Source: Stichopus chloronotus
Taxonomy: Eukaryota; Echinodermata; Holothuroidea; Aspidochirotida; Stichopodidae
Reading direction: 5' to 3'
Assembly: GCA_021234535.1 (NCBI GenBank)
Contig: CM037842.1
Span: forward strand, 27,930,189-27,994,188
Length of the DNA stretch: 64,000 nucleotides
Part shown: piece after piece, positions 22,986 to 57,849 of the stretch
How positions within the stretch are numbered: position 1 is the first letter of the stretch
How the letters are laid out: each line of letters starts with the position of its first letter
The notes under the pieces: model-generated
What the model was told of the DNA's origin: nothing
What the model saw: the letters and a program-made list of their open reading frames with translations, nothing else
Databases searched by the model: none
Program-made: the position numbers and the translations under genes

Positions 22986-23132
22986 CTGAAGAGGAAAGAT
23001 TAATTCCATCAGATATTTCTGTCCGGCTTTGAAGTAACAGGTACAGTCTTCAACTATTGTTACGTCCTTCCTTTTGAAAACAAATGTGCGGTAGCCCCTA
23101 TCTGATTCTTCAATTTGATTGAAAGATATTTC
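22986..23132 (-). CDS. Exon M: UPA domain, last part
   Basis: Acceptor TGTTTTCTGTTTGCCAG, donor CTTCAG|GTATGC. 147 nt, phase 0 to 0. Begins EISFNQIEESDRGYRTFVF and contains CTCYFKAGQKYLMELIFPLQ, matching the last strands of a UPA domain. The preceding intron is about 6.2 kb and holds a HINE-like element. The donor implies at least one more exon; in PIDD, NLRP1 and CARD8 a death domain or CARD follows UPA, but I found no such exon between here and position 1, where sequence is mostly repeats. Confidence 0.78.
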
Positions 23133-23199
23133 CTGGCAAACAGAAAACAATAAAACTATTTAAGATTCTCACTACTAAATGTGCAAAGGTTCAGCATAT

Positions 23200-23700
23200 C
23201 TGTCGGATGCCAATTCATATAACTTGACAGATGACACAAGTGTCATCCCCATATATATGGTTTGGTATGGCCACATAAAACCAGGATATAACTTGATGCA
23301 AGTATCAAGCAGATATGTGAGTAAGAATTGATATGGCCATATACTGTAAAGTCAGATATAATTTGATATAAGTGTCATCCACATACTCTATGTATGTTAG
23401 GTTTTATATGACCATATTAAATCAGATATAACTTGATACATATGTCATCCAGATATGTTACTTAGGGTTTTATATGGACGTATTAATGTCACATGTAGCT
23501 TAATACACGTGTCTTCCACATATGTATGTAAGGTTTGATAATGGCCAAAAAATTATGGTCAACAATAACTTGATACAAAGGTCATCCAAATAGAATAAAG
23601 GGTTTGGTATGGCCATTTAAAACAAGGTATGACTTGATACAAGACTCATCCAGATAGAGTACAATATGGTCATATAAATCCAGATATGACATTGTTTATG
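23200..23700. repeat. About 80-bp tandem repeat in intron
   Basis: Six to seven diverged units of the type GGTTTGGTATGGCCA…AACTTGATACA…GTCATCCA. Related units reappear at 24,335–24,560 after about 630 bp of unrelated sequence. Confidence 0.7.
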
Positions 23701-23709
23701 GTAAAATTT

Positions 23710-24330
23710 ACCACCCTACCTTACATCAGGGTTCATACAAGGTTCAGTTTCCAGTGTTTACCTGAGTTAACTAACCCTTTTCTCTATTCCCTTCAGTCAG
23801 TTACTATAGACAATAAGAAACATTTGAATTGGGTTGGACAAGCACTTGTTACTTGGAAAGATTGTGCAATAATTGCTGGATTGGTTAATTCATGGGTGGT
23901 AACCATTTGCATATAGAGTCTATGATTCTGATTGGTCAAGGCCATTCTCGACCTCATGGCTCTAAACCTCAGAAGCATGGGTTCAGCTATCTGCAGTTAT
24001 GAAGCCGACAATGGTAATCACGCAGTTAAAGTGTAGCTGAATTACTATGGGAGCTGTGTCGTCGTCATGGGAGCTGTGTTGTCATCTTTTCTTGCTCTCT
24101 CTCCTTTTGTCATCGTCATGTGATTGTTTGTATTCTCTCAACCATCATCGTCAACTTAATTTATCAAATTAATGTGTGTCAGTCGAATCAATTCATAAAT
24201 GGGATTCTAATCGTCAAGCCAATCTCTCTGGATCTTCGTTTCTCTCTCTGCTGTAACAGGAACTTTCCATATCGTTAGCGTTTGGGATATCAGCCGCCGG
24301 AGCAGTCATACTATGACTGTAAATCCCTAA
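23710..24330. other. Sequence splitting the 80-bp tandem repeat
   Basis: About 620 bp without repeat units lies between two blocks of the 80-bp repeat. It may be an insertion; I see no terminal inverted repeats. CAGTCATACTATGACTG near the right edge is a short palindrome. Confidence 0.4.
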
Positions 24331-24559
24331 ATACATATATTTGTTACTAACTTGATAGAAGCATGTTCTATCCATGTGTCATCCATAAATGGTATACAGC
24401 CATGCATGGCCAGGCTACACACTTGAATAAATCTTCAGATATAGATATATGTATATGGTTTGATGTGGACATAGAAAGTTTGATATATAATACTGTAACT
24501 TGATGGGGTTTCATCCCGATGTGTCACGGTAAACAATGTTTGATATGCCAGAATTAAGT

Positions 24560-27383
24560 TGACCAAAAAGTATTCCTTTTTTTTTTTTGTATTTTTTGTA
24601 TTAGACTTAACTTGACCATTACTATTGTTTTTTTTTTCATTACCATGAGATTAAATTGTTTGATATTTACCGGCTTTGTGCAATTTACCTTTTTTTTTTC
24701 ATGTTGATGTTGTTAAGTACTCATCATTGAAAGTGAAGTATCATTGAATAGCTTTCGTACGTCCTAGTTGGCCAAAAATGGTCACATAACGTAATCAGCT
24801 GTTGCTGATTGTTGTTGAGGCTTCAGAATGTTCACTTTCATCAACTTTGTTTTGCAAGAGATTAAGAGCATGCTGTAAGGAGTGTCCATATACTAAAAAA
24901 CATATTTTTTTTATAATTTTCAGTGTTTAGTCTAAATATAGACATAGCTTTTATTCAACATTTATACCACTCGACATAGCAGAAGTCAAAGCTTCTATGT
25001 TGGAGATTAAATTATTGGATACATTTCTCCTAGATTAATGATGGCAGAGTTGTACATGTGGCCAAGAGATGGTTGCAATGGGGGTCAAAGCAAGGTGGGG
25101 AGGGGGCCACGGGGGTAAGAAGACACTTGAGTGATACTTTAAATTGTTCTTTCACCAAAGTATCTACAATATGTAAAATAATTATGTTTGTTCATAATCT
25201 CATCAGTGACATGAGTTTGTGCCTGAGTTTGCAACCGTCTCATCTAGCCTTCCCCCACCCCCATCCGTCCCTCGTCCTTACTCTGACCACCATCCTTTTA
25301 TTGATAATGATAGTAAATAGGTGAAGAGATATCTAATAAGAGGTTCTAAATAGAAAAGCACCTTATAGAGGATATTAAAACACTAAAAATCAGTTTTTTT
25401 TTTTCACAATGCATCTCTATGTGGACAAATTGTCCTTTACAGTATGTTGCATGTCCCGTACGTCACGCTGATTTATTTACAGAATTGTCATTGTACCATC
25501 AAACGTAAGATTTTTACTTGGTATTTTCCTGTGTGACATATAAGTGTTTGGACTGCCATAAGTGGTATAATTGTAGCTGTATGACTACTACTGGTAGAAA
25601 ATTTTCCATGTATATTATAATTTATTATTAAGCATATTATTAAGTTATTTACATAAAAACATTTTTTCTGTTGTCATGTATGACATGGTACACAATTAAT
25701 TGAGATATTTCTCATATACTGTAATATCCTTATTAATTTTTGTTGTTTGTTTAAGTGTTAGTTCAATGCAAAGTAATTTTTTTTTTTTTTTTGCGTATGC
25801 TAGGTGACACTTTTCAATCTCTTAAATGTCCCATATGTCACAGTGCAAATAACGTATACTTGCCCTATACAATCATTTTGTTTGAGATGTAGTCATTATT
25901 GAATTGCTGGCTTATAAGATGTTTTATACAGGATGATGCCAACTAAATAAGCAGGATAGCTTACGTGAAAGTGGATTAATAATTTGATACAGTCCTGTAA
26001 GGATAAAGGACTGTACAGAGTTAAACGTACAGAATTAACTTACTTGGGCTCCTGTCTGTAAGTGGTGATATATGGGTCACTTACCTGCAAGTGGAATATT
26101 CTTCAATGCAAACTGTACTGCAATACACATAGTGCATTAGTATCTTGGAAGTCCTCATGCAGTGTGAATGACTGGTATTGCCAGGGACATGTGAGTATAT
26201 CTTCAATTTCTTCTCCTATATTAGTGGGCAGTATATACCGGAAAGGTTTGCAACTCCATAGCAAAAATTTCCAGAGAACCATCTAGACACAATGCTGTCT
26301 CACCGTTTATTTACTTACAGCTCAGCTTCCCAATCTGTTTTCTAGGTGCTATTTGGGAGAATTTTTATACATGGATTCAGCTACTGTGATCAAACCTTAT
26401 ATTTGTGTATAAGTTAACAAATATGAATTTCTATTGTGCACTTACGGTGTTGTCATATCTTTCTAGTTACAAATTGTGACTTTTACTTCCACCATCTTTC
26501 CACAATTGTTCCTTTTTTAAAATGTATGTAAGTATGCTTAATCAGACAGAACATTCAGCATTTGCCTTGTATATTGTTTAAACTATTGCAGCAACTGCAT
26601 GTTCTTAAGTACAGCAACATTATTTTAAAGTGATGAATGATAGAGACTAAAGAGTCTTATATTGTGAGTCCTGTTTGTAACGATTTGTTTTTTCATTGAA
26701 TAGGTTTCTCAGATTTATTTCTGTGGTCTTTCTGCTGTCTGAAGCTTTGGAGAGGGACATGGGGAACTCAACTGTTCATATTTTCAGTGTATTTGAAATA
26801 CCTTAATTACAAGAAGGGGCTGTAGTTACTTCGGAGGTACTTCCCCAATTTTGTGAGGACAGCTATTGTTTTTTTTAGGTTATTTTTCAACTAGTATGAG
26901 TTTCACATGTTACACTCATGTTTCTTTTTTCTGATCTAGAGAATCTTTCACACTGAGGTTCCTTTTTGTATTAATTTACACTTGCTGGCTTGCTGTTAGT
27001 TCCTATGAAAAATGTGTGCATGATAGCCTATATCCATGAAGGCTGTAGCATCTGTGTTGCACTTTTCCCCAATTTTGTGCTGCAACTGTTAAGTTTGCAA
27101 TTTATCCATATTCAAGCTTTTCAACATTTTAAAATATTTCATGATTAAGGCCATTTGCTTTAATAAAAAATATAATCAATTTTGGAAATGGAAAGCAATG
27201 CATGCAGTAGTATCTCTATGCACAAAATGCAAGGGAAAAATAACGTGAAACATTACACTGAGGCAAAATTGAGGCAATATGTGCATAATTGCCTATTAAA
27301 TGTAAGTCTGTGTACTTGTGAAATACAGCTTGTAACAAACTTCTTACAAAATTTTCAGAGGACACTAACTCATCGCATTTTAT
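24560..27383. other. Intronic, mostly single-copy AT-rich sequence
   Basis: T runs and short A/T-rich stretches. No exon with paired splice sites, no LINE and no tandem core recognised. Confidence 0.5.
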
Positions 27384-28550
27384 AACCACAAAGTCAAAAT
27401 GCTTTGAGATTCCTTGCGACATGGTTATATTATAACAAACATGTATTACGCACGTGACAAGTATGAGATCACCTGTAGTTATTGTTCTTAAAACACCACA
27501 TTAATGGGCCTTTCACCAAAAATGAACTTTATTTTGGTGACATCAGATGACCTTTGATGTCCACCAAAAGCAATAGGGATCACCTACCTAGTATGGCCAA
27601 CCAACACATCAAGTATTACGTCAGTCAACATTACCCTTCTGGAGTTAAAGTATTACCAAGGTTTGACCTCGGGTGACCTCAAATGACCTATGACCTCCAC
27701 CAAAAATAAAAGGAGTCTTCTACTTAGTATATACAATCCACACATCAAGTATGACATCAGTCAGGGTTAAACTCTTGGAAATATTGTGTTTACACATTTT
27801 TACAGTTTGACCTCTGGTGACCTCAAATGACCCTTGACCTTGTCCAAAAACACATCTTCTGCTCATTATTACCAACACACACACCAAGTATTACAACAGT
27901 CACGGTAACCCTTCTGGAGATATTGTTTACAAGGTTTTTAGTCTGACCTCTGGTGACCTCAAATGACCTTTGCCCCTCACCAAAAATAATAGGGATCATC
28001 TACTCAGTATGACCAAGCAACACACTAAGTACCACATCGGTCACAGTTACTGTCTTGGAGATATTGTGTTTACAAGGTTTTTGCAGTTTGACCTCTTGTG
28101 ACCTCAAATGACATTTGGCTCCCACCAAAATCAGAAGGAGTTTTCTACTCACAATATACAATCCACACACCAATTATGACATAAGTCACAGTTACCATTC
28201 TGGAGATACTTTGTTTAAAAGCTTTTCACAGTTTGACCTCTGATGACCTCAAATGACCTTTGACCTCACCAAAAACAATGGGGATCATCTACTTACTATG
28301 ACCAACCCACACGCTAAGTATGACATCAGTCACAGTTACCGTTCTTGACATATCATGTTTACAAGGTTTTCACATTTTGACCTCTGGTGACCTCAGATGA
28401 CCTTAGACCTCCACCAAAAACAATAGGGATCATCTACTTACTATGACCAACCCACACACCAAGTATCAGATCAGTCAGTTACCCTTTTGAGATATCGTGT
28501 TTACAAGACATCACCATCGCATAGATTCCTTCTGCTTTCAGAAAGGAATC
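27384..28550 (+). mobile_element. HINE-like element, copy b (1.2 kb)
   Basis: Starts AACCACAAAGTCAAAATGCTTT with GATTCCTTGCG, then seven to eight DR-core units (perfect TGACCTTTGACCT at about 28,256), and ends in GACATCACCATCGCATA plus the hairpin 28,524–28,550. It lies within the long intron between exons L and M. An A run follows at about 28,596. Confidence 0.8.
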
Positions 28551-29308
28551 GAAAAGGTGAAAAGCAGTTGCATGGAAGAGGTTGTTTGTTCTATGAAAAA
28601 AAAAAAAAAAAAACTATTAAGTTGTGGAGTCTATCATTCATTTATTTTTACACTTTCAAAACATTGAGCCTGTCATCTTTTGAGCTGGAAGATGTGTACA
28701 GTACAGTCTTTTACAACATGACAAAGTGATTTGGATGAAGACTTTTTTCTTTATGGCCCTTCATTGGGAAGGATTTGCAGAGAAATCGTAAATAGGATTT
28801 TGTTAATGTTTTGCATTTACAAATTCACTGTGTTTAAGTCCTAATGTTTGAGATTATTAAGGAAATAAGGTTTTGCATCCATTTAGCCTGTAGTTGATTT
28901 GTTTCATAACAATTTTCAGACACATGTGTAAGTGTTAATCTTTCACTGACATCGTAAATAATATAATTTTCATTCAGCTCTAATTTCACTTTCCTTCTTC
29001 TAAATTGTAACCTATAAGTTTGGAATTTACGCATGTTTCATCAAAATCTGTCATTACTCCTGTTCAACAGGGGGTTGAGGGTCACCAGCAGGTTGGCCAC
29101 TCATGTAATAGTGTGTACTGATCAACACTGGTATTAAAGGAATACAAATATTTAACTGGATAATCATATGTCTAAGTTATGTGTACCATAAAAAAATACA
29201 TTTTTGATAAAATGTAATGCAAAACCCATACAATACTAAATTACCATTTGAGTAAAGAGGTGTTCAATGAGCATTTTCATCATGCCAGAGGTGTGGATAT
29301 TAACTTAC
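28551..29308. other. Intron next to exon L
   Basis: Contains an A homopolymer of about 19 at 28,596–28,614. The minus-strand open frame at 28,834–29,034 has no recognisable features. Nothing else seen. Confidence 0.4.
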
Positions 29309-29449
29309 CTTATTCTTTTCATCACTGCTATCGTAATTCCAAATGGCTGGTTTTGTTCTCTCAAACTCAATTTCAAGAGGAAGTTCTCCATCTTTCCAAA
29401 ATTTGCATTCTTGATCAGCCAACAAAATCCGGTTATTCGACATGACAAC
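29309..29449 (-). CDS. Exon L: UPA domain, first part
   Basis: Excellent acceptor (TTCCTTCTTGTGGCCCAG) and donor (AATAAG|GTAAGT). 141 nt, phase 0 to 0, joining exon K without a break. About 47 residues including NRILLADQECKFWKDGELPL, ending SSDEKNK. This fits the middle of a UPA domain, the module that follows ZU5 in UNC5, PIDD and ankyrin and that, in NLRP1, mediates assembly of the freed C-terminal fragment. Confidence 0.8.
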
Positions 29450-29564
29450 CTGGGCCACAAGAAGGAAGTTAAACATGTGTTACATTAAGAAACACCTGAG
29501 ACGTAGTTGTAAGGAAAACTCATATTGGTAAAACATACATTTTGCAAATTTAATCTCCTATTAC

Positions 29565-29786
29565 CTCTTGAGCCCCTGGTAAGTTCAAGTGGTATCCAAC
29601 ATCAATATATGTGTTTCGAGTGTTTTCCAGTCTCTGCGCAGCAAAGACGACTATCCTCTTTGCTTCAACTATTTTACCATCAATTTCAATTTTCTCCCAA
29701 CTAAAGTGGGAAAGTGAAATCACAGCATTTCGCTCATTCAGTTTACAGTCAGCCATGAGTTCCTCTTCCCACTACTGGTTTCAAGC
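29565..29786 (-). CDS. Exon K: second part of ZU5 with HFS autoprocessing motif, start of UPA
   Basis: Strong acceptor (a long T/C tract ending GTCCAG) before 29,786; donor CAAGAG|GTAATA after 29,565; exit phase 0. From the ATG at 29,756 the frame encodes ADCKLNERNAVISLSHFSW, the last ZU5 strand with an HFS triplet (codons 29,700–29,708), then KRIVVFAAQRL and YHLNLPGAQE, resembling the start of UPA. In PIDD, NLRP1 and CARD8 the bond between F and S of HFS is cut by the protein itself. Entry phase 1 runs into a stop unless one extra base near 29,773 (AGTAGTGGGAAG) is removed, after which KPV joins WEEEL; use of the weaker acceptor GGGAAG|AGGAAC would also keep the frame. Confidence 0.8.
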
Positions 29787-30039
29787 CTGGACAATGGGAA
29801 AGAAAAAAAAACAGGAAAAGTTTATTTAATACACAATTCAGCAGGACGGAAATAATGACACCCTGATAAAACTTTTTTCACTACACTAAATGAACAGAAC
29901 AATTTACATAACTATAATACTGCAGGTTACGAAATCATTGCTTGTCGATAAATGACGATAGGTCACCATTTGGTGTTTCTATTATATCTGTATCTAGCAA
30001 TTACAGCAACAATGAAACAAAGCTCAAAGACGTAGTTAC

Positions 30040-30349
30040 CTTCTTCATGATGGCTGCTGTATACTTTAGCTGTCCAATGTACTCCTTTCTTGAGTACTAA
30101 ACAGTGGGGTAATGTCAGTTCTGCTGCTTTTAGAAGCTCCAACTTATTTGGAAGGAGTTCCACTACTACAGATGAATTACTCTCAAAACAAAGCTTCTTC
30201 TCTTTTGGGAGTTGATGCAGAACAATTCTCATTGTTACCAGAGTTTCGCCTGTAAGAGCACCAGGAGGTATTTCTAACTTAACACCAGTATTTGGAATAC
30301 TTAAAGAGCCTACCTTTTGTATTGACCATCACCTTCGTTGAGAATTTGT
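30040..30349 (-). CDS. Exon J: first part of ZU5 domain
   Basis: Acceptor TTTTGCTGCAG before 30,349; donor GAAGAAG|GTAACT after 30,040. The entry phase (1) matches exon I. The start encodes FSTKVMVNTKGR; the rest, in a frame shifted by one base, encodes IPNTGVKLEIPPGAL, VVVELLPNK, LTLPHC and YSSHHEE. IPPGAL and LTLPHC are hallmark segments of ZU5 domains (UNC5, ankyrins, PIDD and the FIIND of NLRP1/CARD8). An extra T in CTCTTTAAG at about 30,302–30,305 accounts for the frame change; removing it also restores the exit phase required by exon K. ZU5 packs against UPA and can autoproteolyse. Confidence 0.82.
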
Positions 30350-31600
30350 CTGCAGCAAAATAAGAAAACTGCGATATGGTAACTTTGAAACATACCAATG
30401 TTAAAATATTTATGCTGTAATACAACAAACAGATTGGGTGTTTATTTCATAACATTACTTGCCAGCAGTCATTTAAATTAAGTCAAAATCAACTTTTTCT
30501 TGAAAATAACAAACAAAAGACAAAATTACAAACTGCAAGGAGACTGGTGATAATGGCAACCTAGAATTGATACAATTATTGTTACTCTCTAAATGCCAAC
30601 AAATTGAAATTAGGGATGGCTATAAAAATTGATCACCCCACAGGAGCTCGAATGACTCTTCAAAAAGAGTGTGTTTCTTCCTTAGAGTGAATATCAGTCT
30701 TAATTCTAGAGCAATTTCAAATTTCATTCTACAGAATTCAGAGAGTAAAGATGAAAAGATTTTAGTTATCATTTGTCGTTTTTAAAGCAGAAAAAAGTAC
30801 TTTGTGATTATTTGTAATATGAGAAACTGTGGATGGAAATTTGATGATAGCACATTAACAGAATTAGTGAATGACACTATTAGTGGGATTTGTGTGAGTC
30901 CATACAAGGGAAAGTTCAACTACGATTGGTTTCTTTAGTAATAAATTTATGATCATTTCTATCCAGTACATATTACAACCTGTAATGGGACATTCACAAG
31001 AATAAAAAAAAGATGCCTTTTATTTTATGTTTGACACCACATGGAACTTATGGAAACTAATTAAGTCTTAGATCACAAATGCTTATACCCCCAACATATT
31101 AATTGTTGTTATAACTGAACCCACGATAAATTTAATACAATTTAACCATCAATGCAATAACTAAAACTAAACATCAATAAAATAAGTTTTAACCATTAAT
31201 GTAATAGTTTCTTAAAAATGGCAAAATAGGCTTCTTAACACTTGAGTCTTAGATTTACTTGATGGATGTTGTATGGCCACTGCACACTCCAAGGGGGCAG
31301 GGAATAAGTTGCTCACCCAATACTTTGGGAGGGCAGTTGTGTAAATGGAACTCCTATGTAAATCTATCTTAATGAGACCACAGATTTGAAAAATTGCTGG
31401 AAGGGGAGGAGTTTCTTGATGGAGAGGAGCAGTTCTAGGAAGTCTTTTGTAGGAGTGCTTGTGAATTTTTTCAACTATCCCCCATGGCTATATGGGCAAA
31501 TGAATGATATAGTTTGGTGTCAACTCCACTGGATTGGAGTCATGGGTTTTCATTGGTTTCACGATTTGTTACAGCATATATTTTAGGGACACACTTTTAG
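30350..31600. other. Intron, single-copy and dispersed repeat
   Basis: No exon seen. 31,430–31,560 (CCCATGGCTATATGGGCAA…GATTGGAGTCATG) resembles 13,770–13,860. Confidence 0.4.
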
Positions 31601-31639
31601 GGAATCTTATCCTTGCTCATTAGCATCGGCAAAGCCATG

Positions 31640-32102
31640 CTGAAGTGGCTACCTGTGTGTGATTCCGTTTTTTCCTCAATAACTCCTATCATACCCATAT
31701 ACAAGACATTCCAATAAGATTCATCTTCCTCATCTACGTTTATCCCTGAATAACAAATCAGTTAGGCAAACTGGTGCTTTAATTTGGAGTGACCTAAATA
31801 CTGACTTAAAATCAGTACCAACCCTGATATATTTGAGAGTATTTCTCTTTTCCACTTAACACCTTTCAGGTCAGTGCTACTGTACAGTGGCTTTTTTTTC
31901 TTTTTATACACTGTTAGATTAGTATTAGAAGGGAGGTACTCTCATTTGGTCTTTTTTGTCCATTTGTTGTTCTTTTCCTTTGTTTTCTTTCATCAGGTGA
32001 ACCTTCTTCTTGAAAACTCCAGCTGGTTCAGGTACCCATTACTTTCCTTCTCTTTTATCCTTGCTGTTCTCTCTGTACTTTTTCCTTCAGTGAGCAAAAT
32101 AC

Positions 32103-32135
<33 letters not shown>
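31640..32135 (+). pseudogene. LINE C-terminal end with ATCA microsatellite tail
   Basis: 31,700–31,860 reads LPHLRLSLNNKSVRQTGALI and WSDLNTDLKSVPTL, a degenerate LINE C-terminal block, followed by a pyrimidine-rich 3' region and a tail of eight ATCA repeats (32,101–32,135). The tail is a usual mark of CR1/L2-like 3' ends. Confidence 0.7.
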
Positions 32136-32136
<1 letters not shown>

Positions 32137-34830: not shown

Positions 34831-34913
34831 AATGTGGACACACACACGTACACGCCCACACACACACACGACATCACTATCTTGTAGATTCCTTCTGCCT
34901 TGGGCAAGGAATC
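34831..34913 (+). mobile_element. HINE-like 3' end on the second core
   Basis: CACACACG runs, GACATCACTATCTTGTA and the hairpin 34,887–34,913 (GATTCCTTCTGCC with GGGCAAGGAATC). This is the same 3' module as at 18,228, 28,550, 56,841 and 60,526. Confidence 0.85.
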
Positions 34914-35095
34914 AAAAAGAAAGAATAATGTATAAGTTGTGCACATCCTGATAACCTCATTTGCAAAGTGACCATTAAATTTAAAGAGAGACAGGCAAGT
35001 TTTGAAAGTACAAGATTTCCCAGCTCATTTCCCTAGACTCATTTTAATTAGTGAATTCAGTTTTTGACCATCTACCTGTTACAGTTATCACTCAC

Positions 35096-40843: not shown

Positions 40844-40905
40844 CTCCCATTTTCCAGTTTTCTTGTCAAGTGTGTTTACTAGTCTTTCTCCAATGATCCA
40901 CTCAA
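40844..40905 (-). CDS. Exon F: short linker exon
   Basis: Acceptor CAATAATAG, donor GGGAG|GTATGA. 62 nt; entry phase 1 fits exon E and exit phase is 0. It encodes about 20 residues (EWIIGERLVNTLDKKTGKWE). No domain recognised. The acceptor has a weak pyrimidine tract; the fit of phase and open frame is the main support. Confidence 0.7.
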
Positions 40906-44672: not shown

Positions 44673-44875
44673 TGTGCTTCCTTCAGTAACTTAAACTTGA
44701 AGATGAATCTGACTAAATCTTTATAGTCTTCCTCTTTCATCTGCTGGTCCCAGCGAGATACCTCAACTGATTTAACAGTGGGGAGACACTGTAAATGTAT
44801 GCCACTGTTAAAGGTTAGTTCCATCTCTGTTGCCATAACAACCACATCAATCAGTTTCAGAGTTCCTATTCGGAT
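44673..44875 (-). CDS. Exon D: linker/LRR-like exon after NACHT
   Basis: Acceptor TTTTACTGCAG before 44,875; strong donor GCACA|GTAAGC after 44,673. The 203-nt exon enters in phase 0, as the NACHT exon requires, and leaves in phase 2. It encodes about 68 residues including LKLIDVVVMATEMELTF, LQCLPTVKSVEV and KEEDYKDLVRFIFKFKLLKEA. The alternation of hydrophobic strands and a helix could be a degenerate leucine-rich-like unit; I do not recognise it firmly. The frame would stop at TAA two bases beyond the exon end, so the protein could end here if the donor were not used. Confidence 0.75.
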
Positions 44876-45825: not shown

Positions 45826-48083
45826 CTTTGAATTAGATGCATAGGTGAGCATTGAGACCTTGGACTGTTGCAGTAGTCTGCTATCTTCACCCTGGATGGT
45901 CACAATATTTTTACAGACCTGCCTCACAGCATTGTCCATTCTCTTATCTCTGGTAGAAGAATCAACTTCAGCAAAACAAAGGAAAATACAGTTGAGTATG
46001 TATTCTGGAACAGCTCCATCTTCTTGTTTGTAAACACTATAAAGATGTTTCATGATGAGATGGCAACTGTCAGGACAGAGATAGCTTGTAAATCGTAGAA
46101 CATAATGTAGATCAGCAGGGTTGATGAGGGGAAGGTGTCTGTTCAGAAACACTCTGTGGCGACGTTTCCCTTTTGACTGTATGAGCATGGAGGAGAAGTG
46201 AATAGCTGCAAACCATTCTTGGATGACTTTATGTAGAAACTTAACTTGCAAGGACACATCATGAAGTTGTGAGGTACTAGCCACTTTATCATGTACCTTC
46301 GAAGATGTTTTTCTTGGAACACTGGCAGGTTGCAAAAGTTCTCTTTCAATGCCACTAACAGATGGCAAATCATGATGAACTGATTGCATAATAGAAATAT
46401 ATTGTTCTGTAAGTTCATCACCTGATATCAATACTTCATTGAAGTGTACATCTTCAAGGTCAGAAGAAGTCTCCTGCTCACCAGGTGGAATCAGGTACTG
46501 ATCTTCATCTGTGTCTCTTGTATCCACAAAGGCACTTGCTGAGACATTTTCTGTAGTGTTCTTTTCCTTTCTTTCTGGTTGCTCTTCCCCAACCATCAGA
46601 CCCTCTTCAACTACTGGTAGCTCTCCTCTAACCATTAGACCTTCGGAAATTTGTGGTAGCTCCAATCCAACCATTCTACTTTCTTCACCTGCTAGTAGTT
46701 CTCCACCAACCTGAAGACCCTCTTCACCCGCTAGTACCTCTCCTTCAGTCATTAGACCCTCATCACCTAGTGGTAGCAATCCACCAAGTGTTACATCTTC
46801 TTCACCTACTGGTAGCTCTCCTCTACCCATCAGACCCTCTTCAATTACTGGTAGCTCTCCTTTAACCATCAAACCTTCACCAACTGGTAACTCTCCTTCA
46901 ACCTTTGGATCCTCTTCAAGTACTGGTAAATCTCCAACCATATCACTCTCGTCTGCTACTGGTACCTCTCCTCTTACAGTTAAGCCCCCTCCACCCATTA
47001 GTGTCTCTCCCACCACCATTAGACCCTCTTCAACCACCAGTATTCCTGATTCCACCCACTCTTTCATATTAGAGACAGTTTGATCAAGGAAGCTTTTCTG
47101 CCAGAGTAACTGTTGATGTCCTTTGCATAGTCCATTGAATGCGACTTCAGATAATTCTACAGATTGCCTGTCACCCTGGTTTCCTTCTCTGTAGCTGGGA
47201 TCATGTTGAGAAAGCAAAGTATTGACCAATACTTGCATGAAAGCTCCTACCCTTTCTTGTTGGCCTGAACGTCCTAACTGTGCAAAATGTTCCACATTAT
47301 GGACAACAAAAACAAAGAGTAAGGGTGAACTGCAAAGATCTTGCAGAAAGGCAGAATTTTTGATGGTAGTTTTAACAGTCTCTTGCTTTTCCTGGATATC
47401 AGGAAAAATGTTAGCAATGTACAAGTCTCTTTCTTCCTCACCAAATTGTCCCAGTCTCAGCATTGGACATTCAGGGAGGTCACGTACAAAGTCTGAACGA
47501 GATGTCAAGACCACTGAACAGTTAGCAAGTTTCTCTTTCTTCATCACAGTCACAACCTCTGATAGTTTTCCATCTTTAGATTTGCTATTGTACTCCTCAT
47601 AGCCATCCAGGATTAAGTATGCCTTACTGGCTTGCTCCAGTAGACTTTGTATGTCATCAGCAGTCAGAGTATTATCACTGGGAATGTAAAACTTCTTGAT
47701 AGACTCAAATAGAGTCATATCTTCAACAAATCTCAGAGGTAAGAAAACAACCATGTCAGCTTCACTAATTTTGCCTACACTCCAATCATACGCTAATTGT
47801 GATGACAGCATTGTCTTACCGGACCCTGGATCTCCTTCTATGATGATTCGAGTCTCTGATTTCAGTCTGTCATGGGTAAAGATATCTCTGTACTGTAACT
47901 TACAGTCTCGGTCTATGTTTCCCACTTTCAGTTTTGACTTGGAGCCAGTAAGAATTAAACGGCAGGTAACAAACAGCTCCGATGACGTCCACTTACAGGA
48001 CTTCTTCCATGGGATTGGGGTCATTGTGTCATACCAGTTCTTGATCTTCCTTCTCAAACATTCAATAAAAACTGTTTGCTTTC
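45826..48083 (-). CDS. Exon C: NACHT NTPase domain with internal coding minisatellite
   Basis: A 2,258-nt exon bounded by acceptor TTTTTTCTCTTATAG and donor CAAAG|GTACAA; phase 1 in, phase 0 out. It encodes about 752 residues. Counting from the L of LRRKIK at 48,057: Walker A GDPGSGKT at 75–82, Walker B/Mg loop LILDGYEEY at 148–156, sensor-1 strand VVLTSRS at 182–188, and the FLHKVIQEWFAA motif at 607–618 typical of the helical part of NACHT proteins. NACHT domains bind and hydrolyse ATP/GTP and drive ligand-induced oligomerisation of NLR-type immune receptors, which act in the cytosol. Residues about 340–495 are a tandem array of acidic 12–14 residue units (consensus like EEGLMVRGELPV), followed by an acidic Ser-rich stretch. 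The array lies in the loop before FLHK, so the fold may be kept. No frameshift is seen in this exon. Confidence 0.93.
46573..47034 (-). repeat. Coding minisatellite, about 12 units of 36–42 bp
   Basis: Within exon C, a tandem repeat keeps the reading frame. Units are 12–14 codons long and diverged from one another; the best conserved core reads EEGLMVxGELPV. The array begins at VVEEGLM, which directly continues the host loop ESGILVVEEG, suggesting that it grew from that loop. Length differences between units are multiples of three bases. The product is strongly acidic and glycine-rich, probably disordered. Confidence 0.9.
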
Positions 48084-49220
48084 CTATAAGAGAAAAAAGA
48101 ATGTTTATGTAAATAAATTAAGTATGTGAGACCCACAGGTAAGGTACACCATGGACCTATCACATGTGATAGGGGGCTGCATGAAATTATCAAACCTCAC
48201 GAATCCCTATGGTTGCACTGGCTAGAAAATGGAATGTCATTCCATACTGTGATTATTAAAAGAAGGGAATAGCAATTTAATGATAATATAGCTGATTAAG
48301 ATTGGAGATTCATGTGGAGTAAATCCCATGTATGCATTCATTAATACAAATTTTCTGCCACACGATTTCATAGATCTTCTCGTAAACTTTTGTACATCTG
48401 AAAAATCATGCCTTAGTACCTATTGCAGTAACAGTGATGGCACAAAGGTTTAACACACTAACCATATTGTATACACTGAAATAAACAGTAATGACATTTC
48501 CCTTAATGCATTACACATGTAACACATACATGCACTAATTATTATCACATTAGGAGGGCTTCATATTTTACAACATTAAAGTAGGTAGCACACACACGTT
48601 CAGTAACATACAGACCCAAAGTAATTAGACCCCCATGTCATTTTACTTTACAGTTTACTGATACCACGTAAAGAAATGTTAACACGTCATTATTAAGTCA
48701 TGGTTTTGTGGCTAGCTAGTACTGTACATCAGACATCACATGAATGCCAACATCACAAGGCTTTTATGTCAGTGCTATTTATTAAGGGGCCTACAGTATT
48801 CGACATTATCAACAAACATCAGATCTTAAGACATGGCTTGACATAATACTTATTCATGCTGCTGGAATTTTCACATTACAATTGCACCAGTTCTTCAGAA
48901 TAGTTGATGCAGTAATTTAAAAAAAAAAAAGAATGCAAAAGTTATTTCTGCAATGTGAACCACAGTATGTGCTCACAGTAATACACACGTAATATTTACT
49001 CCCATCCTGACTGTTTCAACACAACACATTTTTTTGGATACAGTAAAATGAGTTAGCAATATCCAGTGGGCCAACAGGAGGGGGGTGTGGGCATTTCCAA
49101 CAGTCAGAACCTTTCCCCATAGTTTCCTCCCAATCAGCATGATGTGACCTGACAAATGCATACTTTACATGTATATGCCTATTACCTATTTTCATTCATA
49201 TTTTGGCATTTTTCTTTCTG
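48084..49220. other. Intron upstream of the NACHT exon
   Basis: No mobile element with clear ends and no exon. An A run lies at about 48,919–48,930. Confidence 0.4.
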
Positions 49221-49227
49221 TAGGAAA

Positions 49228-49690
49228 TCAATGAGACTTAAAATTTTCACTCAAAGATACATGCTAAGCCCTCAGAATTTTTGGACCAGGGGTTTGCCCC
49301 TGAACCACCAACAGACTTTGCCTCTGGACACCGCAAGGGGTTGAAAGTTTTCATATTTGAATTACTTTTTGAGAGCTAACTTCGCACCCAGAAATACTGT
49401 ATGCTAAAACTTCAGAGATCCAGTGGAACCCCACCGGATCTTGCCCCTGGACCCATAAGGGGGTCCAAAGTTCTCATGGTCTACTTGAAGGAGAGGAATA
49501 GCCAAAATAATAAAACTCATTTGGAATCTTTGCGTACAATGATGCACTTTAAACAAAGTAACACCTAATGAGTTTTAAGTTTTCACCTAAAGATGTGCGA
49601 AGAACCTCAGAGCTTCTAGGAGATCTGTCCCTGGACCTCCACCAGGGCTTTGCCCCTGGACCCCACCAGAGGTCCTAAAACACTACGCTT
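49228..49690. repeat. About 170-bp imperfect tandem repeat
   Basis: Three units with TTTGCCCCTGGACCCCACC and TTTTCACTCAAAGATAC-like segments. No coding sense. Intronic. Confidence 0.65.
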
Positions 49691-50157
49691 GTGCTTTGTG
49701 CTTGAATTCGCTTGATGCACTACATTTACGCCCTCTCAGTAGTTTCTTTTGCCCTCCATTTGCTGCCCCAAATCTAAGATCCTGTTGTAGCTACTGCTCA
49801 AAGGTTATATCTTCATTTTATCCCATAACATTCTTTCCTTGTTACACTACTTTGTTACTTTAAGCAATATTCACTCTGTAAAGTTTTACCTCTCTTTAAA
49901 TTCTTCTGACTTTTTCCTTTATCAGCTGTACTTTACCTGTACTTACTGTACTTTACTTACATATTTTTATGTCTTTTAATGCTTTCAATCATGTTTCATC
50001 ATTGTTGTATTTTACAGGAAAGTGCAATTTCAACACAGATAATTCAATAAGGTTCACTTTTATCAACGCATCTGTATCCATTTACCTGTAGTGCATTTAT
50101 GTTCATACACAAACAGAAATGACTTGTTTCTCCTACTATATTCTAGGTTTACTGTAC

Positions 50158-50472
50158 CTTTGAATGTATTGACAGGTATCTTCTTTATCTGATTACTTTC
50201 TTCAACCAGGGATTGGTATTCCTCTACTTTGGCAACAGCCTGTACTAACTGAAGTTCCCTTAATGGGGGAATGAGGGCACTAACATCAAATTGATGAATC
50301 AGACCCCTCTCATCAAGAAATGTGAGCAAGGTGAGCCCTGGTGTCCGGCTGGCAGTGACTTTGTCTTTCTCCACATCAATAACTTTGAAGTAATCACAAA
50401 GCTTCTCTGGTACTGACAGTGTCAGATGAGATGACAAAGCAGCTAAGAACCTTTCATGCGGTGTTTCCTCAC
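50158..50472 (-). CDS. Exon B: second death-effector-like domain
   Basis: Acceptor TTTATACTCAG before 50,472; donor CAAAG|GTACAG after 50,158. The 315-nt exon enters in phase 1 and leaves in phase 1, matching the exons on both sides. About 105 residues: helix 1 around RFLAALSSHL, a middle FKVIDVEKDKV, then LLTFLDERGLI and SALIPPLRELQLVQAV, the same DED-like pattern as exon A (LxxLxxRG followed by a leucine-rich helix pair), ending in a charged tail before the NACHT exon. Two DEDs in tandem are the arrangement of caspase-8/10 and FLIP, but here they precede a NACHT NTPase. The intron separating exons A and B (50.5–57.6 kb) is filled by nested transposons. Confidence 0.8.
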
Positions 50473-50994
50473 CTGAGTATAAAATAAAAATACAGTATTG
50501 TCAGGATGCTGTACACCTCACATCAAATATTATATATGCTTTGTTTTTCCCAGGCTATGGGCTACTACTGTATAAGGATTGTTAATTTAGAGAACAGGAA
50601 ATAAAACATGACATTGAAGGAAAAATCGAAAGTGATAAAAAAGAAGTGCCTACATCTAAATACATACAATCTGCATAAATTTATTAGACTGACCTCGAAA
50701 GTTATAAAAATACAATGACCATGAATAACTTCAAATTTACAGAACATTTAATTCTTAGCAACTCAAAAAAACAAATTTTCTAATACAGTGTCTAACTGCT
50801 GCATAGGTTTCATTAAATATCCTTAACTCCCAATATTCAAAGAGGACATGCTTTGCAAATGCAGATGTTGTTTTCCTCACCAGTACAGAAACACTTCCAT
50901 AAATTTTATTTGAAACTCAAATCTTCTTAAAAATATAACATTATGTATTAATGCTAAAAGGGGTTTAGTCCTAAGCTGCACCCTTAAAAAAAAA

Positions 50995-51804
50995 AACCAG
51001 AAAGCCAAAAGGCTTTGTGATTCCTTGCTACATGGTTATATTATAACAAACATGAATTATCCACATGACAAGTATAAGATCAACAGCAGTTATTGTTCTT
51101 GACGCACCACAAGCCTTTAACCCAGTACATGAACTTTATTTTGGTGACCTGAAATGACCGTGACATTTTAAGTCCACCAAAAGCAATAGCGATCACCTAC
51201 CCAGTATCGCCAACCCACACATCAAGTATGACATTAGTCACCATTAACCTTCTGGAGTTAATGTCTTAGCAAGTTTTGACCTCGGGTGACTTCAAACAAC
51301 CTTTGACCTCCACCACAAACAAAGGAGTCTTCTACTTAGTATATACAATCTACACATCAAGTAAGACATCAGTCAAGGTTAGACTCCTGGAGATATTGTG
51401 TTTACACATTTTTACAGTCTGACCTCCGATGACCTCAAATGACCCTTGACCTCAACCAAAACATTATTACCAAACCACAGATCAAGTATCACATCAGTCA
51501 TGGTTACTCTTCTGGAGATACTGTGTTTTCAAGGTTTTTCAGTTTGACCTCTAGTGACCTCAAATGACCTTTGCCCCTCACCAAAGATGACAGGGATCAT
51601 CTAATCAGTATGACCAAGCAACACACTAAGTATGACATCAGTCACAGTTACCCTCTTGGAGAAATTGCGTTTACAAGGTTTTCACAATTTGACCTTTGGT
51701 GACCTCAAATGACCTTTGACTTTCACCAAAATCAAAGGGAGTACTCTACTGACTATATACGATCCACACAACAAGTATGACATCGGTCACAGTTACCCTT
51801 CTGG
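50995..51804 (+). mobile_element. HINE-like element, copy c, left part
   Basis: AACCAG, palindrome AAAGCCAAAAGGCTTT (51,001–51,016), GATTCCTTGCT, then about five DR-core units, cut at CCTTCTGG by the transposon at 51,805. The right part resumes at 55,524. Confidence 0.85.
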
Positions 51805-54800
51805 GCAGTTCCGTAGTTGCGGACGTACATTTCAGAGACTTTGAGGGCCCAGTCTTCCAATGTGGTTGAGGCTGTAGGACATTTTACACTTGCATTTGGT
51901 GTGGTTATGGTAGAAGTGTGAAAACTGAAAATCTACTCCAAATCCCATTCTCTGTCTGCTTGATGGGTCACAAAAACATCCCTGTTGTGGACGTATTCAC
52001 AGAAAGGGCACTTTTTGAGTTACTTGTGGTTCAATCACATTCGCTCTGAAGTGTATAGATATTTAATTGAAACTGATGTGGTATTATTTGCATGAGGCCC
52101 TAAAGTGCAAAAACCAGCCAAGGCAAAAATCAAAGCTATTGCATTTCAGGTTGGGATTTTGCAATGTTTACCGTTGCGGACGTACATATTTTTGTGTTGC
52201 GGACGTACGCTGTGAATTTCCTGTACGTCCGCAACAACAAAATGACTGAACCTAGGTGGAAAAGCTAGACATATCACAGACAAATGACAGAATATTTGTC
52301 TCTAACAACAATAAGACTTAACAGTATTCATTCAAGGTGCTTGGGAGACAGATATCTTAATTTTCAGAATGTTTGTAATAAATTTCCAAATTACAGCGTC
52401 CTTTTTCGACTACCAGTGTGAAGTGGATGTAAATAACTAACTGAGCATCAAATTCAAGGCTAAAAATGCACTTACAAAAGTGCAAATCTTACACAAGGTC
52501 GTAGGCCTGCACATGTACTGTACCATAAATTGTAATCAGTACACTATTGCACAAATTGCAAAGTACAGCATGTGGTAATAAATTCAGTACCTTACCATAC
52601 CTTTGCATACATCCCTAATATTTAACAATGTGAAATCATGACCACATGGCAAATTCCTCTGCATTTATACATGTCAAATTTCTAATTAACTCTGGTTCAG
52701 TCAAATCTTTGTCAAGTAAAAATCACTAGAACAACAAACAAAGCAGGGCTGTAAAATCATGTAATTCAGCTAAGGCTTATGATCTGGAATTTCAAAGTTC
52801 AAACCTTGCAAAAAGTAAGAGAAAATGTGGTCAGTCTGTCTTGTGAAGAGCATATGTATACTGTAGTTGTACTGTACTGTCCTGGTAGAATTGGAACATA
52901 AATTTTCTCACACAGACTTTATGTGTTAAGTAAATCACTTTTTGAAATATACCAGCAGGTCATTTCCAAGTACAGTACTTTCTAGACTTTCATCTGTAAT
53001 TGAAAACTATTAAATAGTTCATAACTCAACACTTCCAGGTCAAATTGACCTGGAAGTTACAATTCATGAATACACTACCACAGCAAATTCACTAAGATTT
53101 AGATCCATTCTCTCACTTTCTTTTTCATCCACTTTTATCGTTTGCTTATTTTCATAGCTGTTCGCCATAGTTCTTAAATTTGCCTCTTTACTCTCTTTCA
53201 AAGAGGTGGTATGGATGAGAGGGTTGGATGGATGGATGCTATGTATTTTGGTATTGTACCTGCCAAAGCCTTTCCAGATTTTACTTATTTCTTGTATTTT
53301 AGTTGCAGATATATCTTTGACATGAACTTTCCATTTTTATCATCAGCAACATCTATGTGAGAAGTTCTTACGTATACAGTATCCCAATGGTTTGGTACTA
53401 CTGCCCACATGACTTCATACAGTTCTTTTAATGGTTCCCCCTAGACCCACCAACCCCTTGCCATGGAAAGTAACAAAGACGTGCCACCTTAACAGTTATA
53501 CTGAACACTGCTTCCCATTTTGAGAGGTTGGACAGCAGAAAGTGTTGCTTAAACCGAGAGCGACAGTAGTTTGCTCAATCAAAGAAAATATCAATTCTTC
53601 CTATCTCAGTTTATTTGTCTGTAATGAAACCGGGAAATGTCACTCATGAAAGCATAGACACTCAGTTTATTGTGCTGGAGATCATCAGATACTATTACTA
53701 AGCTTTCATGGAGGAGGAGCAGTGTTTGCATGGCCCCAAAACCAATGGTGTAACAATCTCAGTTAGTTCTCTGTGGCCATTAGCACACATTTATAAATTA
53801 ACAAATACACAATGTATGGTCTGACAGAAACTTTAAAGGGAAATAGGGCGTTTATTTTAGAGAAAACATCCATATTTTTGAAACCAATATTTGTGGACGT
53901 AGAATAATAGATTATTAAAAATAAGGAAGGACAGTAGCCTTCTTTTCAAGAAATAAGCTTCTCGTAGACAGAAATTCAGTTATTTGTTGTTCAACACTAA
54001 CTTGTTCACCCAAACTTTTCAAAATTCAAATGATGCATCTTCTATTACTCATCATATGCATAATGTTTTGAGGAGATGAAGCTTTGGTATATGTTTATTG
54101 ATGAGACTGAATGGTTTAACAATGACTACCGTTATTTTCTTTTGTATGTCATGTTGGTGTGTTTTGAACGCCCTATTTCCCTTTAAAGTAAACCCTGCAA
54201 AGCATGATCAGCGCATCAAAACTAGGCTGCGCATCTTGAATGGTGTCTTGATGTACCGTAATGGATGTGTAGCAACATAGGAGTATCTGAATATATAGGG
54301 GTGTCAGAACATCTAGAGGGTGTCAGAACATAGTACTGTAGGGCTGTACCCAAATTTACATGTTTATTTCTCCATGTATGGCATGCTAATGAATGGAGTA
54401 GCCAGTTTGTGTATCCAATGGGCAGACTGAATCTCCTATCTAATGTACTAGTGAGATGATCTCCAAAAAATCAACAAGCAAAGTTACCACATGCATGCCA
54501 TCAACATTTTGCTTTACAGTTTCAAAGACTGACGTATGTTGTTATTCGACATACACTTGTACCAGGCAAGCAGGCACCTTCATTTAACTCATTCAGTATT
54601 TCTGCAGAACAATGACTTCAACCGAAACCATTTTATCCATCCCAGCTTCCACTTGGAATATCTGATGTAGGTATGATAGCATCAAAGTACTGTATAGGAG
54701 CTTGTATATCAACAAAAACGAGTGTTCCAATCTTCCATGTACCTGACAGTGATAAAAGAATTCTACGAGTGAAGTCAGGATGTGTAGACCTACTTCTGGT

Positions 54801-55523
54801 AAATTGTGTGAGGGGGAAGGGGGCTTAAAGTGAGTGTGGAATTGTTGGGGATGCTTCAAATATTTATGGAATTCATAACTACCACTCAATGTTGCAATTT
54901 ATCAGGACAGTTAAGGATTTGTATGACTTCTGTATGTTTAATGTCTTTAAATATAACCGTTGTAGACGTACGTTGTTGCGGACGTACGTTTTTGGTGTAT
55001 CTTTGTAACAATGTATCTCACGAACAGAGAGACATAGAATGTTTATTTACTGTTGTTTAGACTACCCACATGGAGTGAACAGAAGATATGACTTGAAATA
55101 ATTTTGTGATACTTTGTTTGTAGTTCAGCTAAAAAAGTATGTGTTTTCCGTTGCGGACGTACATTTATGATGAAGTCCAAAATGAATTGTGTCCACTGCA
55201 GAGGAAATTGTACTTGTGAATTCCTGTTTGTGTTGGAATGATGGGTAAAGGCATTGACTTTTAAAACAACTCTTCAATGGATTTCTAGGTTGCTTTTCTG
55301 TCGCATTAACTTAGGGCATAAAAAATGTGTATTTTTTGCCTCATGTATTTGCGTTTTGACACTGTTGTGTTTATGACCTCACATATAACAAAATATAAAT
55401 GTTTGGTGGTATTCCATATTAATACACAAAAGTAGAGACTTAACCCTTTCATATGACATATAATTTACAACAATCTGACGATTTTTAATTTTAGCCGTTT
55501 GGTTGATGTAATTACGGAACTGC
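51805..55523. mobile_element. 3.7-kb DNA transposon inserted in HINE-like copy c
   Basis: Ends GCAGTTCCGTAGTT and, reversed, GCAGTTCCGTAATT; both sides are flanked by CCTTCTGG (51,797–51,804 and 55,524–55,531), an 8-bp target duplication, and removing the insert restores a normal DR-core unit. GTTGCGGACGTAC occurs at 51,816, 52,173, 52,196, 54,975 and 55,150 and inverted at 52,223, all near the ends, like transposase-binding repeats. No transposase frame was seen, so it is probably non-autonomous. The 8-bp duplication points to hAT-like families, but the ends lack the usual hAT signature. Confidence 0.85.
53833..54186. mobile_element. TTAA MITE, copy 2 (354 bp)
   Basis: Same ends as copy 1 (AGGGAAATAGGGCG and its reverse complement) and TTAA on both sides; inverted relative to copy 1. 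It is nested inside the 3.7-kb transposon. Confidence 0.92.
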
Positions 55524-56841
55524 CCTTCTGGAGATTCTGTGTTTTTAAAATGTTTTCACGATTTGACCTCTGATGACCTCAAATGATCTTTGACCTGGAC
55601 CACAAACAAAAGACATCATCTACACCATATGAACAACCCACACACTATGACATCAGTCCTAGTTACTCTTCTGGAGATATTGTGTTAACAAGGTTTTGAC
55701 AGTTTGACCTCTGGTGACCTCAAATGACCTTTGATCTCCACAAAAAACAATATGGATCATCTACTGAATATGACCAACCCACATATGAAGTATGACGTCA
55801 GTCACAGTTACTGTTCTGGAGATACTGTGTTTAAAATGTTTTTACAGTTTGACCTCTGGTGACCTCAAATGACATTTGACCTCCACCAAAAACGATAGGT
55901 ATCACCTGCTTAATATGAACAACCTACACACTAAGTATGACATCAGTCACAGTTACCCTTCTGGAGATGTGTTTACAAGGTTTTTTCAGTTTGACCTCTA
56001 GTGACCTCAAACGACCTTTGACCTTGACCACAAAGACTAGAGATCATCTACCTACTATGACCAAAACACACACCAAGTATGACATCAGTCACAGATACTC
56101 TTCTAGAGATAATGCGTTTACAAGGTTTTCACATTTTGACCATTGTTCACCAAAACAATATGGATCATCTACTTAATATGACTAACCCACACACCAAGTA
56201 TGACATCAGTCACAGTTACCATTCTTGACATATCATGTTTACAGGGTTTTCGCATTTTGCCATCTGGTGACCTCAAATGACCTTTGACGTCCACAAAAAA
56301 CAATAGGGTTCATCTACTTACTATGACCAACCCACACAGCAAGTATGAGATCAGTCATGGTTACCCTTCTTGAGATATCGTGTTTACAACAAGCATCACA
56401 CACACGCATACATGCACATACCCATTTAGGGCGCCGATCGGGGACATGAACTTTTCCTCACGTAAATGGGGATATCCCCACTTTCCATATGATGTCCCCA
56501 GTAAGTGGTATTTAGTCTTGCATGTATCCCCGATTCACCCCAGAAACGGGATTGTGTGTATAATTTTTTTACACACATACACCCCTATACACAGGTATTG
56601 ATCCATAAAATAGGTAATTGGGGACAAAGTTAGATTCGCCTATAAAGTTGAGGACGCATATCTGATACCCCAATTTGCATTATGTTAAAATATCCAGAAA
56701 AGCGGATATCCCCGTTTTTCGGCATATCCCCGGTTGCAAGTTTGAAGTTCCTGTGTGCGTCCCCGTTCGGCGCCCTATAAAACAAACCCACACACACGAC
56801 ATCAGGACTGCATAGATTCCTTTTGCCTGCGGCAAGGAATC
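55524..56841 (+). mobile_element. HINE-like element, copy c, right part
   Basis: Resumes with CCTTCTGGAGATTCTGTG, contains six or more DR-core units, then CA-rich sequence interrupted by a TA-flanked MITE at 56,429, and ends GACATCAGGACTGCATA plus the hairpin 56,815–56,841 (GATTCC…GGCAAGGAATC). Confidence 0.85.
56429..56775. mobile_element. TA-flanked MITE (347 bp)
   Basis: Ends GGGCGCCGATCGGGGAC and, reversed, GGGCGCCGAACGGGGAC: 16 of 17 bases match. TA flanks both sides (56,427–56,428; 56,776–56,777). The interior has GGGGATATCCCC palindromes. It sits within the CA-rich tail of HINE-like copy c. TA target suggests a Tc1/mariner-type helper; inferred. Confidence 0.85.
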
Positions 56842-57575
56842 AATCAGTGGCCCTACAGTAGCATCAGTTTACATCTCAAATGGATTCTCTACCTGTGGCA
56901 AAATTTCTATGCAGCCAAGCTTACTTTCCTGAATGTGTGTAACTGTGGGTAGGCTTTATGTAATTTACAAACTAAATGTCCAAATCTACTGTAGGATGAT
57001 AGGCAAAAAAAAAAAAGCGCACCCAGGTTGTGAGTATACAGAGGTGTGGCTACATGCAACGGCAGCCCTAGTGTACAGTAACAGTATTTGAATGCAGTCA
57101 CATCTACTTGGCCTTTCCGCTTGATGGAATACTCAAAACTCATCCATGTTATCTACAGCAGCCTACTCAATATGGAGAGATTAGAATATCAGACAGATTT
57201 ACTGTTTTATTCATTAATAGGATGCAATTTTAATTGTGGTTTGTAAGGATTTGCCTTAAAGTTTTTCTTTTTTCTTCGAATTATCCAATAATTTTCATCA
57301 AACAGGAAGCTTTGCAGCATTCACAGTGCACAAGATATGTCTAACAATAATGATAGGCTAAACTGGGTTTGTGTAGTAACATCACAACCTGCGTTAGTGG
57401 CGAGTCTGAGTTCAGTAACTATGATGAACCAGAAACAGCGAAAATCCTGCAAAGCTTCTCTACTACTATTTTACAGATCTGTATTGACAGTGATTACAAG
57501 ACCAAATGTGGAGATTTATTCACTTCATCAGCTTTCTCCTGTATCAAAGAAGAGTGAAAATGTAGAAATCCTCAC
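56842..57575. other. Intron next to exon A
   Basis: No mobile element with defined ends seen. Plus-strand frames at 57,337 and 57,369 overlap the exon or precede it and look accidental. Confidence 0.4.
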
Positions 57576-57849
57576 CTTTATACTTTCTGTAAAATTCTGC
57601 ACACTGGACTGCTTCCTTTAATTTCAGCTGATGAAATGCTTGAAGTAGTCTATTGATATTACTAGGATATACAATCCCACGCTCTTCAAGGCTGTTGAGG
57701 AGGTCCTTCACAGGTGACTGGCTGTCCGTGACTGTGTCTTGATGTTCCCTTGAGAGTTGGAAGAAATTTCCAACTTGTTGGCAGTCATTTGATGACAAAA
57801 CTTTAGCAAGTGTCCCTTTGAATACTTCATAGTCTTTGAATATCTCAGT
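57576..57849 (-). CDS. Exon A: first death-effector-like domain of the DED–DED–NACHT–ZU5–UPA gene
   Basis: On the minus strand a pyrimidine-rich acceptor ending TCTCTTACAG precedes 57,849 and a donor AAAG|GTGAGG follows 57,576. The 274-nt exon is open in entry phase 0 and leaves in phase 1. It encodes about 91 residues that look like a six-helix death-fold domain of the DED type: a leucine-rich first helix (VFKGTLAKVL), then KDLLNSLEERG and RLLQAFHQLKLKEAV, which fit the 'L-L-x-x-L-x-x-R-G' pattern of DEDs. Such domains normally recruit other DED adaptors or caspases. No initiator ATG lies in the exon, so a further 5' exon must exist and was not found. The domain type is assigned by eye; a CARD or death domain is the alternative. 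Confidence 0.75.

Follow-up and report, generated by a model that had tools for sequence, protein, structure and literature searches.

The window analysed here, the whole of a 64,000-nucleotide stretch (C14:27930189-27994188) in the 719 Mb, 267-contig genome of the sea cucumber Stichopus chloronotus, holds most of a minus-strand gene that spans about 102 kb. The order of the whole gene is propeller–DED–DED–NACHT–linker–ZU5–UPA–death domain (DD), and the gene belongs to a family of sea-cucumber NACHT receptors whose propeller is of the NHL type. The exons and motifs recognised in the window are as follows.

57576..57849, minus strand: DED1 exon; AG/GT at its borders, joins DED2 in phase; E=1.2e-24 with the family DED1 profile
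50158..50472, minus strand: DED2 exon; joins both DED1 and NACHT in phase; E=2.7e-30 with the family DED2 profile
45826..48083, minus strand: NACHT exon, 752 stop-free codons; Pfam NACHT E=9.3e-18
46575..47032, minus strand: 39-bp minisatellite coding for 13-residue repeats in the linker inside the NACHT exon (tandem repeat finder)
44673..44875, minus strand: tail exon after NACHT; in phase; 50-51% identity to the relatives P0061/P0062
42595..42668, minus strand: short tail exon; P0061 tblastn 82% identity, E=6e-5; phases fit on both sides
40844..40905, minus strand: short tail exon; P0061 tblastn 61% identity, E=3e-5; upstream phase fits
30040..30313 (start 30313 or 30309), minus strand: ZU5 exon 1 with LTLPHC and the SHH histidine pair; Pfam ZU5 E=8.3e-12; family profile E=1.5e-37
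29565..29771, minus strand: ZU5 exon 2 and start of UPA; family profiles ZU5 E=3.3e-8, UPA E=7.2e-7; frame break at the upstream edge
29697..29708, minus strand: predicted autocleavage motif HFSW, cut between F and S; from the sequence and the aligned position in relatives
29309..29449, minus strand: UPA, first part; family UPA profile E=3.6e-9; tblastn; border scan
22986..23132, minus strand: UPA, second part; family UPA profile E=2.2e-10; tblastn; border scan

Organization of the gene

In tblastn the Apostichopus japonicus protein P0061 aligns colinearly with ten exons of the window (DED, DED, NACHT, three tail, two ZU5 and two UPA exons), and P0062 aligns with nine of these ten in the same order. 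The NACHT exon is 64% identical to P0061 over 48099-47023. AG/GT borders and in-phase joins were found for DED1 (57849-57576), DED2 (50472-50158), NACHT (48083-45826) and the next exon (44875-44673), the junctions DED1/DED2, DED2/NACHT and NACHT/first tail exon being of phase 1, 1 and 0. A border scan gave compatible phases from 44673 to 42668 (phase 2), 42595 to 40905 (phase 1), 29565 to 29449 (phase 0) and 29309 to 23132 (phase 0), and a GT donor at 22986 closes the last window exon. Splice phases fit at all alignable junctions outside the linker.

An earlier note on this DNA, made from the letters alone, had described thirteen exons, in phase apart from frameshifts, between 57849 and the same donor as one gene with two DEDs, a NACHT and a ZU5–UPA module. 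The single gene is borne out by the colinearity of P0061 over ten exons and by the same order in paralogous loci. Ten of the thirteen exons are backed by relatives, but the other three lie in the unalignable 35-38 kb linker; the interval 22986..57849 contains real exons but is only a part of the gene, as the propeller and DD exons are beyond the window. The motifs Walker A GDPGSGKT, Walker B LILDGYEEY, FLHKVIQEWFAA, IPPGAL and LTLPHC were all found where the note had placed them.

Profiles built from relatives were run over the surrounding 184 kb. A six-bladed NHL-type propeller exon lies at C14:28015989-28014937 (minus strand, E=6.9e-82), 21 kb outside the window and upstream in the gene, and a DD exon at C14:27914460-27914221 (minus strand, family DD profile E=4.6e-30), 16 kb outside the window and downstream in the gene. 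Both exons are open, and P0061 and P0062 are colinear with the locus from the propeller exon through to the DD exon. Inside the window the family profiles gave neither a death domain nor a propeller (best E 0.12 and 0.41). A weak ZU5-like piece was seen past the DD exon at C14 27902574 (E=1.9e-7).

The Pfam search proposed in the earlier note recovered NACHT and ZU5 at the E-values listed above. For DED it was divided, as the window stayed under the cut-off (E=0.0017, 19 vs 35.9 bits) whereas all seven aligned members gave E<=1, with a best value of 4.5e-9. By sequence there are two adjacent DEDs; the N-terminal model shows two six-helix bundles, and its list of fold matches was filled by propellers, so the fold search did not probe the DEDs. 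UPA was assigned in the window by profiles built from relatives only, which gave three pieces (E=2.2e-10, 3.6e-9 and 7.2e-7; next best 0.17). Two stretches that look UPA-like by eye, 29037-28834 and 27500-27216, were rejected as UPA exons since neither gave a Pfam match or a significant family-profile match, the Pfam scan of 27500-27216 having been made on a piece joined to another. With a NACHT domain, Walker A and Walker B the gene product belongs to the STAND/NACHT NTPases. Searches of the window NACHT exon and of the full-length relatives P0006, P0008, P0003, P0022 and P0005 turned up no leucine-rich repeat (LRR) family with E<=1, so that it is not an NLR in the strict sense. The domain that follows UPA is Pfam Death, not CARD, in P0006, P0008, P0003 and P0022. 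The window gave no match to a phage collection and no Rfam match at gathering thresholds.

Relatives and paralogs

A joined DED–NACHT query was searched against 5.8 billion proteins, with scoring of the 7,990 candidates that had most words in common with it. It gave 42 matches; 33 belong to one family (E<=5.8e-134) and the other nine are LRR-type NACHT proteins (E 7e-7 to 3e-5). After further searches the family comprised 64 proteins, a number of gene models and isoforms and not of genes; by precomputed Pfam columns 42 of the 64 have NACHT and ZU5, and 30 also have Death. Beyond a gap in E-values came LRR-type NACHT proteins (best 1e-7) and a Lingula helicase with ZU5 (6.6e-5). Species-labelled matches at E<1e-19 were only from Apostichopus japonicus and Holothuria leucospilota, in searches with an exact-word prefilter that may miss distant relatives. 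The databases label the relatives 'uncharacterized protein' or 'NLRC5', and the same order is present in models from the two sea cucumbers. In a NACHT tree of 56 rows (the window and 55 of the 64 proteins, the remainder being without alignment over 280 residues) the window groups with A. japonicus P0001, P0061, P0062 and P0010, the last on a long branch, and with P0002 (support 100/99). The H. leucospilota model P0070 appears by eye to have the propeller–DED–DED unit twice, around a single NACHT, with a partial ZU5 at the end.

In the genome of S. chloronotus, where 142 of 233 candidates were scored, the NACHT query found 15 places at E<=1.1e-51, followed by a gap to 8.2e-36; besides the window gene this genome thus has about fourteen related copies. 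For the counts of colinearity 29 of 42 DED places were used (one on C16 and the 12 weakest were left out), and 15 of 60 DD places. DED2 was found upstream within 20 kb in all 15 NACHT copies and DED1 in 14, ZU5 was found downstream within 30 kb in 14 of the 15, and in 13 copies both DEDs precede NACHT and ZU5 follows it, all on one strand. When 27 ZU5 places were scattered uniformly in 2,000 runs, with contig sizes assumed except for C14, NACHT–ZU5 pairs (the only pairing so controlled) numbered 0.1 on average and 2 at most, against the 14 of 15 observed. DD lies downstream within 50 kb in 13 of the 14 ZU5 exons paired with NACHT, a count without a random control. Internal stops were reported in 1/15 NACHT, 4/15 DED2 and 3/13 DD matches, and copies with ZU5 exons reading in frame exist.

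The NACHT and ZU5 exons could instead be two adjacent genes merged by predictors. Five family proteins are without NACHT (P0050, P0053, P0055, P0057 and P0066), among which P0050 and P0057 have ZU5–UPA–DD, and the model P0073, which has SH3 domains besides NACHT and ZU5, may be a fusion. However, order and strand are the same in 13 of 15 loci, the gene models of two species repeat the order, and splice phases are compatible on either side of the linker. Together with the colinearity of P0061 these led us to reject two separate genes, which we regard as highly improbable.

NACHT matches in the whole genome number from at least 104 to at least 142 and lie on many contigs, mostly C5 and C10; all but 15 are distant from the family, and a weak DED match adjoins one distant NACHT on C12. 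On contigs C22 and C23 many ZU5 exons occur as same-strand pairs with some 5-10 kb between the two members; genes with a double ZU5 may have expanded separately there.

Predicted self-cleavage site

D'Osualdo et al. (PMC3210808) showed that CARD8 is cleaved between Phe-296 and Ser-297, His-270 being important and His-252 probably structural. In the window ZU5 a histidine (SHH) stands at the place of His-270 and Phe-Ser (HFSW) at the site, and autoproteolysis of the ZU5 is thus predicted from sequence and modelled fold. In 61 family proteins there are 54 ZU5 copies, and the 48 that cover both motifs were counted (6 were dropped). The site residue is Ser in 33/48, Cys in 14/48 and Asn in 1/48, where Ser includes the first ZU5 of P0053 and of P0055, both divergent and perhaps misaligned; Phe precedes it in 43/48. 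The LPHC histidine is present in 48/48 and the histidine at the His-270 place in 43/48. The site was located in nine copies of the S. chloronotus genome, namely the window (HFSW), the copy at 28.60 Mb (NFSW) and seven of 13 stretches fetched beside other ZU5 exons (SFSW three times, RFSW, NFCW, and SFSL twice in weak matches, E 0.003 and 0.03); in the other six stretches no site-bearing exon was found within 1.3 kb.

The fold predicted for ZU5–UPA–DD, which was modelled on relatives, is near UNC5B, CARD8 and NLRP1, and the Phe-Ser site and the activating His are further features in common with a FIIND. The NLRP1/PIDD-like ZU5–UPA module of the earlier note is supported, and its self-cleavage site is plausible. 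It could also be that ZU5–UPA–DD is a non-cutting autoinhibitory clamp, as in UNC5B, and that the DEDs give the output once NACHT opens. The Phe and the His-270-place histidine, both kept in 43 of 48 copies, are however needed for cleavage of CARD8, and UNC5B carries a Leu where these copies have the Phe (PMC3210808). We consider such a clamp unlikely, though a serious alternative. Death folds lie on either side of the predicted cleavage site in this gene.

Comparison with known systems

PIDD has LRRs and two ZU5s, and is not known to have a NACHT or DED. The window family resembles PIDD1 in the order ZU5–UPA–DD and in an HF/S-type site, and differs from PIDD, with its N-terminal LRRs and no NACHT, in having a NACHT and no LRR match. 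The cytoplasmic module of UNC5B and ankyrin is the closest fold to the modelled ZU5–UPA–DD, and we know of no NACHT or DED joined to it. Tandem DEDs are shared with vFLIP, cFLIP and caspase-8, with weak sequence similarity, and we know of none of these with NACHT or ZU5. With NLRP1 and CARD8 the family shares NACHT (NLRP1), the predicted ZU5–UPA fold, the Phe-Ser site, the His-270 place and a death fold after UPA. In contrast to them it has no LRR found, a DD in place of CARD, an N-terminal propeller and two DEDs, and no PYD is named in the relatives.

The pair NACHT–ZU5 is recurrent in sponges, cnidarians and ctenophores, and the available parts of the sources give no DED, UPA, DD or propeller order for these genes (PMC12909245, PMC8260672). 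Marine invertebrates have DED/TRADD-N proteins fused to FIIND or UPA–ZU5, which combine a death-effector-type domain with ZU5–UPA as here; no such order with NACHT is given in the portion available (PMC8195603). AjNLRC4 and AjNLR-new, A. japonicus NACHT proteins with an immune role, are Ig–NACHT–transmembrane proteins, and ZU5 is absent from the text of PMC13133943. The A. japonicus genome has expanded NLR-type genes, according to a work cited in PMC13228809. No published text on the propeller–DED–DED–NACHT–ZU5–UPA–DD order was found in the open-licence PMC literature. The earlier note knew of no described gene of its kind, which agrees with the absence of a paper naming the order there, but predicted proteins with the order are already in public databases. 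The NACHT–ZU5 pair is already known, and the full order was not found described.

Proposed mechanism and state of the window copy

We think it fairly probable that the family consists of NACHT receptors with a sensing propeller, a self-cutting ZU5, and signalling through a DED half and a DD half. The propeller would sense a ligand or partner and NACHT could be an ATP-driven oligomerisation switch. The ZU5 would cut itself between Phe and Ser, like CARD8, NLRP1 and PIDD, and the halves propeller–DED–DED–NACHT–ZU5 and UPA–DD would stay non-covalently bound. Activation may then cluster the DEDs and/or free UPA–DD, which in turn could recruit FADD/caspase-8-type or RIPK1-type partners. We infer the steps after cleavage from the biology of NLRP1, PIDD and FLIP/FADD. 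Cloning of FADD and caspase-8 from a sea cucumber has been reported (PMC7161275).

Several points weigh against this explanation. The choice of partners is a guess from fold similarity. The DED assignment is under the Pfam cut-off in the window, P0006, P0003 and P0005. Of five models of ZU5–UPA–DD the best was used, and the remaining four have a mean predicted local distance difference test score (pLDDT) of 39-49. Cys or Asn stands at the site in 15/48 ZU5 copies, including 12 of the 14 from H. leucospilota, in all 12 of which it is Cys. In the window copy the frame breaks near 29,772, at the upstream edge of ZU5 exon 2 and just before the predicted cleavage site, and changes a second time in the linker near 35.4 kb; DED2 has a ratio of nonsynonymous to synonymous substitution (dN/dS) of 0.98, from few changes (3 synonymous, 10 other).

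Because of the frame problems upstream of the site and in the linker, the window copy may be damaged or inactive. It could then be a pseudogene, in which case the family is real and this locus makes no receptor. The two frame breaks and the DED2 ratio speak for this, as do six stops over the aligned stretch in the NACHT frame of the closest paralog, at C14 28.59 Mb (gene C14:28579772-28610354), and introns rich in repeats. On the other side stand the open 752-codon NACHT exon, both DED exons, the propeller exon and the DD exon. At the junction of ZU5 exons 1 and 2 a stronger-looking AG after a pyrimidine tract breaks the frame, which is kept only via an AG at 29764 inside exon 2 at the cost of a few residues. 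Against the closest paralog, the reference for all dN/dS values, DED1 gave 0.29, the NACHT core 0.26 (328 codons) and ZU5 exon 1 0.27 (91 codons), while ZU5 exon 2 gave 0.20 with dS saturated. The helical tail gave 0.54, and the linker inside the NACHT exon 1.02, which raises the value of the entire NACHT exon to 0.66. Most domains have been under constraint, as the low ratios in DED1, NACHT core and ZU5 indicate, although past and present constraint are mixed in this signal. A pseudogene at this locus is in our view only slightly less probable than a working gene.

Divergence from the same paralog is mosaic, with dS near 0.1 for both DED1 and the NACHT core, against some 1.07 for ZU5, and DD only 55% identical, as if the N-terminal half had recently been copied or converted relative to it. 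The minisatellite expands the linker of the NACHT exon, where identity to this paralog drops to 64% and dN/dS is about 1. A repeat with a unit of about 145 bp forms arrays at 15373-15692, 16568-18130, 27535-28507, 51352-51804 and 55525-56389, several of them in introns of the gene. Outside the gene, at 1-13000 of the window, a unit of some 2,415 bp occurs five times as a direct repeat; the segments compared mostly agree to 94-100%, some of them less, and the unit has an open reading frame that by eye resembles the tail of a long interspersed element (LINE).

A bolder form of the receptor explanation is held more tentatively. A self-cutting receptor would have DED and DD, both FADD interaction folds, flanking the scissile bond with the NACHT motor between them; cleavage would split it into one half that signals by DED and one by DD, so that it could act as its own adaptor, and the copies with Ser and Cys sites could be a multiplied immune repertoire. 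Vertebrate NLRP1 is the main known case of a self-cleaving NACHT sensor. If the proposed explanation is true, a family of invertebrate deuterostomes would join the self-cleaving module with tandem DEDs and a DD, which is a different signalling context, and the natural series of Ser, Cys and Asn at the site would offer a way to ask what purpose the cleavage serves.

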